Under the pieces are notes generated by a model that saw only the letters and a list, made by a program, of their open reading frames with translations, did not search any database and had not been told where the DNA came from. The position numbers and the translations under genes were made by a program. Below are positions 32,173-41,119 of a stretch of DNA of 41,119 bases, in pieces (position 1 is the first letter of the stretch; the number at the start of each line of letters is the position of its first letter). Origin of the DNA: an uncultured Lentisphaerota bacterium (GTDB taxonomy: Bacteria; Verrucomicrobiota; Kiritimatiellia; CAIQIC01); NCBI GenBank assembly GCA_903889245.1, contig CAISWQ010000008.1, positions 1-41,119 on the forward strand, written 5' to 3'.

Positions 32173-32232
32173 GCGGCTCGGCAAGCCCCGCCCTCCATAA
32201 ATTTATTTGGAGGGCGGGGCTTGCCGAGCCGC
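32173..32232. repeat. Perfect 24-bp inverted repeat with AT loop
   Basis: Arms 32173-32196 and 32209-32232 are exact reverse complements around a 12-nt loop (ATAAATTTATTT). The GC-rich arms give a very stable hairpin lying between the corA and xylB stop codons. There is no clean T run on either side, so it is not a standard terminator but may act as one for both genes. The arm contains GGAGGG...GCTTGCCGAGCC, related to the hairpins at 40868-41010. Confidence 0.8.
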
Positions 32233-36857: not shown

Positions 36858-36932
36858 GCAGCTACATGAAAGAACTCGCGGCCGGCGGCGGCATCGGCTA
36901 CATCTGCGCCGGGCGTGGAGGACAGGAGCCGC

Positions 36933-39900
36933 ATGATGAAAACAATAGTCAGCGTGTGCGCATGCTGCGTGGTCCTCGTCACGCGCGCCGGCGACCTCGC
37001 GTTCAGCGATCCGGCGGGCGTGCCGCCGCCGCCGGCGTGGGCCGTCGGCCAGGCCAGCCGCGCGCCCGACCTCGACGCGTTGCCCGGCTTCCAGAAACCG
37101 CCGCCGGGTTTCGGCAACGTGCCGTTCTTCTGGTGGCTCGGCGACCCGCTGACGCAGGAGCGGCTCGGCTGGATTCTCGCGCAGATGGAGGGCCTGGGCC
37201 TCTCCGGCCTCCAGATTAACTACGCGCACTCCGACCGCGGCGGGCGCAGCTATGGTCTGACGCTGCCAAGCGACCCGCCGCTGTTCTCCGAGGCGTGGTG
37301 GCAGTTGACCGGCTGGTTCATGCAGGCGTCGAAAAAACAGGGCACGGCGATCAGCTTGAGCGATTACACGCTCGGCTTCGGCCAGGGCTGGAGCGTGGAC
37401 GAAATTTTGCGCGAGCATCCCGAAGTGCGCGGCATGGTGCTCAAAATGGGACGCGATGGAAAAGTCCAGCCGGAGACGGTGGACTGGTCGCTCAACCCGC
37501 TGCACCCGCAGTCGGGCCGGCTCTACGCGGAAACATTCTTCGGCCAGTTCGAGCGCCGGTTTCCGGGCGAGGGCGGCAAGGGCCTGAATTTTTTCTTCTC
37601 CGACGAGCTCGGCTTCGGCGTCAGCGGCCGCCTCTGGTCGGCCGACTTCGCGGAGGAGTTCAAGCGGCGCAAGGGCTATGACATCACGCCGGAGCTGCCG
37701 GCGCTCTTCAAGGACACCGGCCCGCGCACGCCGAAAATCCGCCTCGACTACAGCGACGTGCTCGTCGCCTTGAGCGAGGAAGGCTTCTTCAAGCCGGTCT
37801 TCGACTGGCACCAGCAGCGCGGCATGATCATGGGCTGCGACCACGGCGGGCGCGGCCGCAACGTCGTCGAGTTCGGCGACTACTTCCGCACGCAGCGTTG
37901 GAACCAGGGCCCCGGCGCCGACCAGCCCGGCCTCGGCAAGAACCTCATCAAGGCCAAGGTCGCCGCCTCGATCGCGCACCTCTACGCGCGGCCGCGCGTC
38001 TGGCTCGAGGGCTTCTACGGCAGCGGCTGGGGCACGACCTCCGCGGGCGTCGTGGATGCGACCTTCGCCAACTACATCATGGGCTTCAACCTGCTCTCGT
38101 TCCACGGCATGTACTACGCCACGCACGGCGGCTGGTGGGAGTGGGCGCCGCCCGATAACACCTTCCGCATGCCCTACTGGCAGCACCTGCGCGGCTTCAT
38201 GGACTGCGTGCAGCGTTTGAGCTACCTGCTCACGCAGGGCCATCACCGCTGCGATGTCGCGATCCTCTACCCCGTCGCGCCGATGGAGGCCGGACTCGGC
38301 GGCAAGGAGGCGGTGCAGACGGCGTTCACCACCGGCGAGCAGCTCTACGCGCAAGGTGTGGATTTCGACTTCATGGATTTCGAGTCGCTCGCCCGCGCGA
38401 AAGTGGTGGGCCACGAGTTGCAGGTTTCCGGCGAAAGCTATCGCGTGCTGATTTTGCCCGCGATGAAAGCGGTGCGGCACTCGACGCTGCAAAAAGCGCT
38501 GGAGTTCCATCGCGCCGGCGGCCTCGTCCTCGCGCCCGGCGCGCTGCCGGAGGCCAGCGACCGCGTCGGCTTGGGCGACCCGGAAGTGGCGGCGATGGTG
38601 AAGGAAATGTTTCCCAACGGTCCAACGTCCGATGTCTTTGCGAAGCTGCCCGCCCGCGACTACGAAGGGCCCGGCTACATCCAGCACCGCAAACTCGGCC
38701 CGCGTGACCTCTACGCCATCTATGACGCGCCGCAGGGCAGCGTTTGCAAATTCCGCGCGACCGGCAAGGTCGAACTCTGGAATCCGTGGACCGGTGCCAC
38801 GCGCCCGCTGGAAGTCATCGCGCAGCAGAACGGCGTCACCGAACTCGCCCTGCCGCTGACGGAAAAAGAAATCCAGCTCATCGTCTTCTCCCCCGGCCAG
38901 GCCTCACGGGTAGCCAAATCTGAAATCTCAAATCTCCAATCTCAAATCTCCCTGGATGGCGCTTGGGACTTCGAGTTGCAGCCGACCTGCGACAACCGCT
39001 TCGGCGATTTCCACTGGCCGCCGACGCCGACCAAGATCGGCGCGGAAATCCGCCAGCTCTGGTACTGCGCAGGCGAAAACACCAACGGCCCGTGGCGCAA
39101 AGTCACCTGCTCCTTCGGCCCGCAGTTCATCCAGTCCGCAACACCCGTGCCCGGCAAGGACGCGAAGCCCTATGAGTTCTCGTGGCGCTGGGGCCGCGAA
39201 AACGATCCCGGCCATCAGGGCTATCACGGCCTGAAGGCGGAAATGCACGACGAGTTCCTCGCGATCGGGCAAGCGACGGAGAAAGCCAAGCACATGCCCG
39301 ACACCGTGGGCTACACCACGGCCGGACACAGCACCTACTTCTCCACCGCCATCGTCGCGCCGCGCGCGATGACCGCCTACGCGCTCACCGGTGACGTGAA
39401 ACCCGCGCAGGTCTGGCTCAACGGCGCGGAGGTCAACGGCCACGAGCTCAAGTTGCAAGCCGGCGCGAATCCGCTCGTGCTGCACTACACCAAACCGGGG
39501 CGCACCTACTTCATCGCCTCGACGGAGGCGCGCGAATCGCCGGCCGCCAGCACGAAGACGGCGTTCTCCCCGGCGGCTTTTTGGATCTGGTATCCCGGCG
39601 AAAAAATCCAGTCCGACCGCTGGTTCCGCAAGGGCTTCGAGCTCGATCAGGTCCCAGCGCAGGCGCGGCTGCGCATCACCTGCGACAACGGCTACAGCGT
39701 CAGCCTCAACGGCAGCCCGGTCGGCAGCGGCGCGCGCTGGGAAGCCGTGCAGGAATATGACGTGACGAAACTGCTGCGCGCCGGCCGCAACGAGCTCACC
39801 ATCCGCGCCCACAACGGCGGTGGCGATGCCGGCCTGATCGCCGAACTCACCGCCGGCACCACGCGCCTCGCGACCGACCGCAGTTGGCGCGCGGCCAAAG

Positions 39901-40847
39901 CCGGGACCGGTGCCGATGTAGCTGCCGAACAGCTCGCCAGCTTCACCGACAGCCTCTGGTACAAACATCAAAACGGCCCGCCGAAGCTGGAGGCAGCGGT
40001 GAAGTCAGTGACAACCTCCACCGTCGAGCAGCCGAAATTCAAGCCGAGCCCTCTCGCGATGAGCTGGTGGCAGAATCCCACCGTGCTGCCCTTCGATGTC
40101 CGCGCCGACGAGCCGACGCCCGTGGGTTGGTATCGCTTCACCGCGCCGCCGGGCCTTCGCGCCCTCACTCTCGTTGCGTGCGGCAAGGTTCAAGCGTGGG
40201 CGGACGGAAAAAAGTGTCGGGTGACGAGGGGAGAGGAACGAGTGTCGAGGGGCGAGGAGCGAGTGATGGATGTCCCGGCTTCGTCCAAGGACTTTGCCGG
40301 GCAAACGCGAGACCAGAGACGAGGGACCAGAGACGAGAGACAAGATCCCAGAGACCAGAGACACGAGACTCTCCGCGTCTCGCTTCCCTCGCCGGCGGCG
40401 GACTGCGTGGAAGTGCTGCTGCTGATCGAGCAGGAACGCGGCTGCTACGGCGGCGCGGCGCTGCCGGAATTCATCCAGCTCGATTGCGGCCCCGGAAAAT
40501 TCGCGGCGGGCGACTGGTCGCAGAACGACGGGCTCGCCTCCTACTCCGGCGGCGCGTGGTATCGCAAGAGCGTCATGCTCACCACCGAACAACTCAAGGG
40601 CACGGTGGTGCTCGACCTCGGCGACGTCGCCGCCTCGGCCGAGGTGCGCATCAACGGCCAACCCGCCGGTATCAAGGTCGCGCCGCCGTGGACCTGCGAT
40701 GTGACCAGGCTGCTCAAACCCGGCGAAAACAAAATCGAAGTGCTCGTCTGCAATACGCTCGCCAACCACTACCTGACCGTGCCGACGCGCTACCGCGGCT
40801 CCCCGGTCTCCGGCCTGCTCGGCCCCGTACGGCTGGAAATCCGCTAA
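36933..40847 (+). CDS. Large secreted GH106-like alpha-L-rhamnosidase
   Basis: 1304 residues with signal peptide (MMKTIVSVCACCVVLVTRAG). Residues 40-640 match the GH106 family (PF17132): PPPGFGNVPFFWWLGDPLTQERLGWILAQMEGLGLSGLQINYAHS at the start, then FFFSDELGFGVSGRLWS, LDYSDVLVALSEEGFFKPVFDWHQQRGMIMGCDHGGRGR, and EGFYGSGWGTTSAGVVDATFANYIMGFNLLSFHG. After about 660 come beta-sandwich modules (LDGAWDFELQ..., WIWYPGEKIQSDRWFRKGF..., VVLDLGDVAASAEVRINGQPAGIKVAPPW, the sugar-binding jelly-roll type). Two segments, residues 662-673 and 1095-1150, are minisatellite-like DNA carried in frame. Start at ATG 36933 with AGGAG close upstream. Confidence 0.8.
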   Translation: MMKTIVSVCACCVVLVTRAGDLAFSDPAGVPPPPAWAVGQASRAPDLDALPGFQKPPPGFGNVPFFWWLGDPLTQERLGWILAQMEGLGLSGLQINYAHSDRGGRSYGLTLPSDPPLFSEAWWQLTGWFMQASKKQGTAISLSDYTLGFGQGWSVDEILREHPEVRGMVLKMGRDGKVQPETVDWSLNPLHPQSGRLYAETFFGQFERRFPGEGGKGLNFFFSDELGFGVSGRLWSADFAEEFKRRKGYDITPELPALFKDTGPRTPKIRLDYSDVLVALSEEGFFKPVFDWHQQRGMIMGCDHGGRGRNVVEFGDYFRTQRWNQGPGADQPGLGKNLIKAKVAASIAHLYARPRVWLEGFYGSGWGTTSAGVVDATFANYIMGFNLLSFHGMYYATHGGWWEWAPPDNTFRMPYWQHLRGFMDCVQRLSYLLTQGHHRCDVAILYPVAPMEAGLGGKEAVQTAFTTGEQLYAQGVDFDFMDFESLARAKVVGHELQVSGESYRVLILPAMKAVRHSTLQKALEFHRAGGLVLAPGALPEASDRVGLGDPEVAAMVKEMFPNGPTSDVFAKLPARDYEGPGYIQHRKLGPRDLYAIYDAPQGSVCKFRATGKVELWNPWTGATRPLEVIAQQNGVTELALPLTEKEIQLIVFSPGQASRVAKSEISNLQSQISLDGAWDFELQPTCDNRFGDFHWPPTPTKIGAEIRQLWYCAGENTNGPWRKVTCSFGPQFIQSATPVPGKDAKPYEFSWRWGRENDPGHQGYHGLKAEMHDEFLAIGQATEKAKHMPDTVGYTTAGHSTYFSTAIVAPRAMTAYALTGDVKPAQVWLNGAEVNGHELKLQAGANPLVLHYTKPGRTYFIASTEARESPAASTKTAFSPAAFWIWYPGEKIQSDRWFRKGFELDQVPAQARLRITCDNGYSVSLNGSPVGSGARWEAVQEYDVTKLLRAGRNELTIRAHNGGGDAGLIAELTAGTTRLATDRSWRAAKAGTGADVAAEQLASFTDSLWYKHQNGPPKLEAAVKSVTTSTVEQPKFKPSPLAMSWWQNPTVLPFDVRADEPTPVGWYRFTAPPGLRALTLVACGKVQAWADGKKCRVTRGEERVSRGEERVMDVPASSKDFAGQTRDQRRGTRDERQDPRDQRHETLRVSLPSPAADCVEVLLLIEQERGCYGGAALPEFIQLDCGPGKFAAGDWSQNDGLASYSGGAWYRKSVMLTTEQLKGTVVLDLGDVAASAEVRINGQPAGIKVAPPWTCDVTRLLKPGENKIEVLVCNTLANHYLTVPTRYRGSPVSGLLGPVRLEIR
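38916..38951. repeat. In-frame 'aaatctcaaatct' repeat inside the GH106-like gene
   Basis: 36 bp of reiterated aaatct/ctcaaatctcc encode SEISNLQSQIS between the catalytic part and the first beta-sandwich. The same kind of word is an intergenic minisatellite in PVC-group genomes. The reading frame is preserved. Confidence 0.75.
40217..40380. repeat. In-frame 'cgagg' and 'gagaccagagac' repeats inside the GH106-like gene
   Basis: 40217-40269 is a run of gacgagg/gagaggaacgagtg type words. 40308-40380 is reiterated gagaccagagac and gagggacc words. Together they encode an Arg/Glu/Asp/Gln-rich, surely disordered stretch of 50-55 residues (residues 1095-1150) between two well-formed beta-sandwich segments. 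Such words are normally intergenic. Confidence 0.8.
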
Positions 40848-40867: not shown

Positions 40868-41010
40868 CGGCCACGACAGAGCGTGGCCCTCCACACCAGA
40901 GGCAGGACGCGCTCCTTCGATGTTGGATGTTCGATGTTCACGACCGGCCACGACAGAGCGTGGCCCTCCAGTTTTCCTCTGTGCGTGGAGGGACGCGCTC
41001 CGTCGCGTCC
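40868..41010. repeat. Three GGAGGG hairpin units (two identical, one variant)
   Basis: Units 40868-40892 and 40945-40969 (minus strand) are identical: GGAGGG then CCACG-CTCTGT-CGTGG. The unit 40987-41010 (plus strand) is GGAGGG then ACGCG-CTCCGT-CGCGT. A broken copy, ggacgcgctccttcga, lies at about 40905-40920. The loop CTC[CT]GT is conserved, while both stem arms differ together so pairing is kept. Confidence 0.75.
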
Positions 41011-41032
41011 GCCTGGTAATCAAAGGAATCGA

Positions 41033-41088
41033 GACAAAGGAATGCGGAGAGCGGCTGGCTCATTCCTTTGTCTGCATTCCTTTGTCTG
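41033..41088. repeat. cattcctttgtc repeat, one inverted and two direct copies
   Basis: 41033-41044 (gacaaaggaatg) is the reverse complement of 41061-41072; cattcctttgtctg is repeated exactly at 41061-41074 and 41075-41088. A 12-bp hairpin with a 16-nt loop is possible. It is an intergenic minisatellite word. Confidence 0.7.
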
Positions 41089-41119
41089 CCGGACTATCGC
41101 TGCCAACCAACGGCTGGCA

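Follow-up and report, generated by a model that had tools for sequence, protein, structure and literature searches.

GGAG-footed, REP-like hairpin units in an uncultured Lentisphaerota genome and the RAYT genes beside them in relatives

The DNA analysed here (the window; 41,119 nucleotides) is the entire contig C8 of the 5.26-Mb genome of an uncultured Lentisphaerota bacterium, assembled in 125 contigs and 96.6% complete. It carries hairpin units with covarying stems, a constant head (the tetranucleotide GGAG at the 5' foot) and a constant loop; units are laid out in pairs and flank genes for REP-associated tyrosine transposases (RAYTs) in relatives, and among these RAYTs the head co-varies with one residue of the protein. 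It is very likely that these are single-strand mobile elements of a REP-like, non-autonomous kind which are, or formerly were, spread by a GGAG-reading RAYT. The REP/RAYT class of mechanism is known; the units fall outside its published definition on the foot, and what is new is the GGAG foot together with the residue that matches it.

The units of the window and their copies in the genome

The unit is 24 bases long and consists of GGAG, a 7-bp stem and the 6-nt loop CTCYGT, with a T before the foot and a G after the stem. The initial annotation had described two units with arms CCACG/CGTGG and loop CTCTGT and one with arms ACGCG/CGCGT and loop CTCCGT, and all three are present: unit 1 (40869–40892, minus strand; GGAG-GGCCACG-CTCTGT-CGTGGCC), unit 2 (40946–40969, minus strand), which is identical in sequence to unit 1, and unit 3 (40987–41010, plus strand; GGAG-GGACGCG-CTCCGT-CGCGTCC). 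The leader GGAGGG ascribed to them is also there but is not wholly a leader, as its last two G are the first stem bases of the fold. DNA folding of the tagged strands gave -8.2 and -8.4 kcal/mol for a lone unit. Units 2 and 3 together make a head-to-head heterodimer (40946–41010) that is REPIN-like by neighbour-pair and fold analysis. Just past unit 1 there is a broken fourth copy, GGACGCGCTCCTTCG at 40905–40919, within a decayed partner unit of the ACGCG type (40901–40919, plus strand) that has the head GGCA, continues as GGACGCG-CTCCTT-CG and has lost its 3' arm; the site therefore probably once held two heterodimers.

Other repeats surround the units. A tandem repeat with a 7-bp period (TTCGATG; 40916–40939, plus strand) follows the decayed unit and occupies the gap where that unit stops. 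This repeat, (GATGTT[CG])n, is dispersed: with at most one mismatch allowed, GATGTTNGATGTTNGATGTT has 57 genomic sites, against 0 for the reversed control. Beside unit 3 a 14-bp motif (CATTCCTTTGTCTG) forms an imperfect inverted repeat (41021–41089). The sequence ACAAAGGAAT occurs 14 times in the own-genome DNA examined, and 11 of these occurrences are within 150 b of a unit, as is only 8.9% of that DNA. On the other side, the neighbouring gene for a GH106-type alpha-L-rhamnosidase (36915–40847, plus strand) has its stop codon 21 b before unit 1 and contains in-frame tandem repeats with periods of 7 to 21 (GAGACCA-like; 40221–40369) that give the low-complexity stretch RDQRRGTRDERQDPRDQRHET.

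The perfect inverted repeat at 32173–32232, which had been said to carry a related GGAGGG unit, is real and holds two members, placed head to head, of a second family with a GGAG head, GGAG-GGCGGGGC-TT-GCCGAGCC, one at 32175–32196 (minus strand) and its homodimer partner at 32209–32230 (plus strand). With up to 3 mismatches this family is found at 20 places in the genome (reversed control 0), and GGAGGGCGAAGCTTGCTGAGCC-like units of the same family stand on both sides of the RAYT at locus L219.

The first family is dispersed in high copy number, as expected of REPs. The arm-free pattern GGAGGGN5CTCYGT has 79 exact copies on many contigs and none when reversed, so the copies are not due to chance; a search for the CCACG-type unit with up to 3 mismatches gave 70 places, again with 0 in the control. 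Among the 79 copies all five inner pairs are formed in 73, four in 4 and three in 2, and the fully paired arms are CCACG/CGTGG (54 copies), ACGCG/CGCGT (11), CCGCG/CGCGG (6), CCATG/CATGG (1) and CCGTG/CACGG (1). The claim that both arms change together, for which independent changes in the two arms were sought genome-wide, thus holds, as most changes are joint. Because 54 of the 79 copies share the same arms, such near-identity suggests recent activity.

Covariation was also followed in 70 distinct 24-mers from the window's genome and from loci of relatives, which were required to have an exact GGAG and CTCYGT and were free in the arms, with non-pairing ones kept. For the 7-bp stem, a palindrome of variable composition downstream of the foot as in REPs, the share of paired cells is 84.7%; shuffling lowers it to 62.5 ± 1.5%, and sliding the partner to no more than 52.2%. 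The figure of 84.7% is conservative because some of the 70 units (9 have at most three stem pairs) are surely chance matches. Cells changed on both sides number 111 compared with 38.6 in shuffles that keep the relatedness of the copies. Of 100 candidates in the own-genome DNA examined, 94 have at least six of seven pairs; a T precedes the foot in 84 of these, and a G follows the stem in 92. These constant flanking bases differ from the CT cut site of the E. coli TnpA-REP.

Neighbouring units are almost always inverted with respect to each other, which is the layout of two closely spaced inverted REPs that defines REPINs and BIMEs. Of 24 neighbour pairs at most 130 b apart, 19 are head to head, 4 tail to tail and 1 in the same direction, i.e., 23 are inverted. 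All 19 head-to-head and all 4 tail-to-tail neighbours join different stems, and random pairing at the observed stem frequencies would give about 39% like pairs, although pairs that were copied together are not independent. The pairs share with the BIMEs of E. coli, which combine two REP types according to the text of PMC6006769, the arrangement of two inverted hairpins with different stems. Units also occur singly and in clusters, and their spacing varies from 30 to 129 b. Short inverted pairs with constant ends look MITE-like, and the units could in principle derive from a single autonomous insertion sequence (a MITE of an IS200/IS605 or DDE element), as its ends or remnants. That varied arrangement speaks against such an origin, as does the fact that the genes associated with the units score with the REP_Tyr_transpos model and stay below the cut-off of the IS200 models, and we regard it as very improbable.

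RAYT genes beside the units in related genomes

Of 56 genomes searched, 38 contain the arm-free pattern. G007 has 200 copies, G033 179, G032 42, G016 35 and G005 32 (reversed control 0 in all five); stems differ between genomes, and foot and loop are constant. An exact unit with the window's own stem types was found in at least 110 stretches of the species genomes scanned. By their titles the listed matches include Verrucomicrobia, Kiritimatiellae, Lentisphaerae, Pirellulales, Desulfobacterales, Candidatus Fermentibacteria, Syntrophaceae, Ignavibacteriae and Armatimonadetes, most being metagenome-assembled genomes (MAGs), of which some names may reflect binning errors. One exact unit each is also found in the IMG/VR contigs L446 (2043–2068) and L447 (2608–2633).

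A Y1_Tnp domain (PF01797) was found in 48 of the 56 genomes. The protein P0001 (158 aa), encoded in G033 some 40-odd bases from GGAG units, belongs to the NCBIfam family REP_Tyr_transpos (87.4 bits against a cut-off of 80), and its sole match in the PDB at E 0.01 is the E. coli TnpA-REP (4er8). Matches to P0001 occur in 36 of the 56 genomes; the best-scoring 68 of these loci (L202–L269) and 8 further Y1 loci were examined. CTCYGT units lie beside or inside the RAYTs L202, L221, L224, L227, L245 and L250 and the fragment L229, which are among those most like P0001, and L208 has CTTCGT. RAYTs less like P0001 have GTAG- or GTGG-footed hairpins or none that could be labelled. CTCYGT units were also seen about 1.1 kb from the gene at L159 and 0.4 kb from it at L153, which is hardly similar to P0001. 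L209, with 73.5 bits, stays below the cut-off of 80.

Units stand on both sides of the gene, as in REPtrons, at L342, L227, L224, L245 and L250. The first of these is the best case, because the window's own two stem types are found on both sides of the RAYT. It is the one RAYT at E 1e-4 among 112 loci (771696 bases) from two pattern scans and lies in record CAIQLG010000286.1, a MAG of an uncultured Lentisphaerae bacterium. The gene (P0005; 669–1130; 90.6 bits with REP_Tyr_transpos, cut-off 80) is preceded by a CCACG, an ACGCG and a further CCACG unit, in that order, and followed downstream by a CCACG unit, an ACGCG unit and a decayed CCACG unit. At L224, L227, L245 and L250 units lie inside the RAYT frame, between query residues ~100 and 105, in frames of 186–302 aa. 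Such in-frame insertion is already known from TnpA-REP subclass 2.4 as described in the text of PMC6006769, where the foot is GT[AG]G, and is in itself no novelty.

GTAG- and GTGG-headed units at L240, L260 and L262 have loops (CTCTGC, CTGCGC, CTACGC and CTGTGC) that are close to the CTCYGT of the GGAG family, which suggests that the foot and the loop are modules of their own. At L232 (G038:C30) there is a tandem of two near-identical GGAG-type RAYT genes, separated by about 0.9 kb; the GGAG units around them have the loops TCC and TCCC. The idea that CTCC in the loop acts as the guide complement of the GGAG head was considered, and the two pair in all 70 units, but the search pattern had fixed both head and loop. 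It was dropped, as the GTAG-headed units at L240, L260 and L262 carry CTNYGC-shaped loops too and as loops lacking CTCC occur in other GGAG families.

These results bear on the two roles proposed in the initial annotation. That the units are substrates of a TnpA-REP transposase is favoured by the stem covariation, by the inverted pairs and by the RAYTs flanked by units in relatives, including L342, but the foot is GGAG rather than GT[AG]G. The other role, a binding site for an RNA chaperone, found no support here: the best Rfam score was 20.4 bits against a gathering threshold of 97, and the terminator scan revealed no terminator-like site at the units, so that both scans behind an RNA reading were empty, which does not in itself rule the role out. 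More broadly, the units might be maintained as sites, in RNA or DNA, that bind an RNA chaperone, gyrase or a nucleoid protein, or as transcript 3' ends, the link to RAYTs being historical. The start of unit 1 so close behind the GH106 stop codon would suit this, and such roles are reported for E. coli REPs in the text of PMC6006769. The copies of the window follow a stop codon, and some copies in relatives lie inside RAYT genes; the latter copies, the inverted pairs and the occurrence in several phyla suit a mobile element better, and together with the empty scans they make selective retention as binding sites or 3' ends unlikely.

For spread by a RAYT we infer the following course. Each unit folds as a 7-bp hairpin with the GGAG tetranucleotide at its 5' foot, and two hairpins with different stems, head to head, constitute a REPIN-like element. 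The RAYT, an HuH/Y1 tyrosine nuclease, would read the GGAG foot and the CTCYGT-loop hairpin on one DNA strand, bind and cleave that strand, and copy the element, or once have copied it, around the genome.

A REP-associated Y1 transposase gene, which the initial annotation had proposed as the thing to look for, is thus at hand in relatives, with the window's two stem types flanking the RAYT of L342, but a GGAG-type RAYT was not found in the window's own assembly. A search with a profile of 11 GGAG-side RAYTs (E up to 10) returned two genes, on contigs C113 and C91, both with His at the position discussed below and with GTAG or GTGG units. The C113 gene (L040, 1121–1904) is flanked by GTAG-GCCGCGTGACCTCACGCGGC units whose centre, TGACCTCA, is nearly invariant and whose stems covary; the C91 gene (L039, 1327–2004) is flanked by GTGG-AACGCG-ACCTCCGGG-CGCGTT units, a family in which the 9-base loop ACCTCCGGG is combined with the stems AACGCG and AGCGCG, both of which pair. 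As each has its own unit family, neither was retained as the partner of the GGAG units. It could still be argued that one of them moves GGAG units in trans, since no other RAYTs were seen in the assembly and the E. coli TnpA-REP accepts some foreign REPs, as reported in the text of PMC8266576; the different head, stem and loop of the units flanking each gene, and the different RAYT clade flanked by GGAG units in relatives, render this rather doubtful, slightly more so than retention as binding sites or 3' ends.

If the units were spread by a GGAG-reading RAYT, the window's genome would once have had such a gene or have it in an assembly gap. For nine of the 79 units a contig end is no more than 500 b away, where about 1.9 such units are expected, and given this excess and the completeness of 96.6%, a RAYT hemmed in by repeats may have been lost in a gap; gene loss is the other option. 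In G005, with its 32 units, no RAYT was found at E 1e-6.

Foot type and the residue at the His101 position

Each RAYT received its label from the foot of the perfect hairpins found no more than 450 b from the gene; for a first set of 75 genes this gave 22 with GGAG, 34 with GT[AG]G and 19 with neither. The first residue table omits the duplicates L203 (of L232) and L171 (of L212), a single stray HSP from L243 and another from L257, and rows of fewer than 80 residues, which left out 2 of the 75. The clearest contrast is in the column of P0001 position 113, which aligns with His101 of the E. coli TnpA-REP (hand-counted numbering): the 21 GGAG RAYTs have T (12) or R (9), i.e., none has His, and all 34 GT[AG]G RAYTs have His. 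E100, H101 and R104 of the TnpA-REP are discussed in the text of PMC6006769 as tied to the reading of GTAG. The same text notes that an R sometimes replaces H101 in subclasses 2.5 and 2.7, whose feet are GT[AG]G, and an R at this position alone is therefore no proof of GGAG.

With the rule fixed beforehand, 64 new loci were then examined as a held-out set from a phylum search of 387 genomes, 92 of which had a match. Blind labels could be given to 48, and 45 of these fit when any residue other than His is counted (GGAG with T in 19, R in 6 and V in 1; GT[AG]G with His in 19), or 44 when only T and R are counted. Among the three misfits L291 has T and was labelled GTAG, although its real units are GGAG-footed on reading; L330 has His and was labelled GGAG, although its commonest feet are others; and L328, with His and a true GGAG foot, is a genuine exception. 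L242, with R within a GTAG clade, is a probable one, and owing to these two a strict tie of T113 or R113 to GGAG was rejected. The 16 unlabelled loci have T (10), R (3) or His (3).

Trees were built without column 113 and without the rows omitted from the residue table, the first also without L258 and L225 and the second additionally without L149 and L148 and with L330 set to unlabelled by hand once the held-out labels had been seen. In the first (71 rows) the foot changes once and His/non-His twice; in the second (133 rows) the foot changes four times, once through the mislabelled L291, and the residue five times. The second tree has a further GGAG group (mostly YFDRYLR) nested in the GTAG side and, on a long branch, L317 (GTAG, His) nested in the GGAG side. 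The change of foot and residue is nested in few clades, and the statistics are not yet strong: sign tests on independent pairs were not significant (3 pairs, of which 2.4 agree on average and none oppose).

We hold it to be about an even chance that the guide has been re-coded, i.e., that the T at base 2 of the foot has been replaced by G (GTAG to GGAG) on at least two occasions, the His aligned to His101 being lost on each of them, while loop and stem evolved apart from the foot, and that the GGAG type is widely distributed among PVC bacteria and has spread beyond them to other phyla. Loss of the His would permit a G at foot position 2.

Relation to known repeats and significance

The units resemble REPs, REPINs and BIMEs with their RAYT (TnpA-REP) in being palindromes of 20–40 nt with a tetranucleotide at the 5' foot, in their many copies, in the inverted doublets of two stem types and in flanking a RAYT. 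They differ in the foot, which by the definition in the texts of PMC3686654 and PMC2817692 is GT[AG]G and here is GGAG in 90 of 94 units (GTAG in 1, GTGG in 0), and in the T or R at the His101 position of the RAYTs. With the GTAG- and CGTC-tagged palindromic repeats described in the text of PMC3733652, in which Opitutus terrae (Verrucomicrobia) is rich, they share tagged stem-loops with compensating changes, head-to-head dimers and heterodimers; there, however, the variants given for the GTAG tag are confined to GYAG, GYRG, GTRG, GTMG and GTGG, and in place of the terminal CGTC and unpaired tail of the CGTC-tagged repeats the borders are T-GGAG and G. The ends of IS200/IS605 elements are likewise hairpins whose 5' guide tetranucleotide is recognised by a Y1 HuH transposase, but no autonomous element with the present ends was found, and RAYT rather than IS200 models match. 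The word GGAG is absent from the main texts of PMC3733652, PMC2817692, PMC6006769, PMC8266576, PMC12306157 and PMC3686654, and GGAG-footed REPs appear undescribed within the open literature covered.

Because automatic REP searches require a GT[AG]G foot, as stated in the text of PMC6006769, GGAG systems would be missed by them, and re-annotation of many repeats may be possible in genomes of Verrucomicrobia, Lentisphaerae, Kiritimatiellae and Planctomycetes. If the re-coding is true, the published guide model would have a GGAG foot keep the CT cut site (A3G4) and trade CA for CC (G2G4). The way in which a RAYT recognises its guide and selects a cut site is an open point in the text of PMC8266576, and the natural pairs of head type and residue would offer a direct way to learn it.
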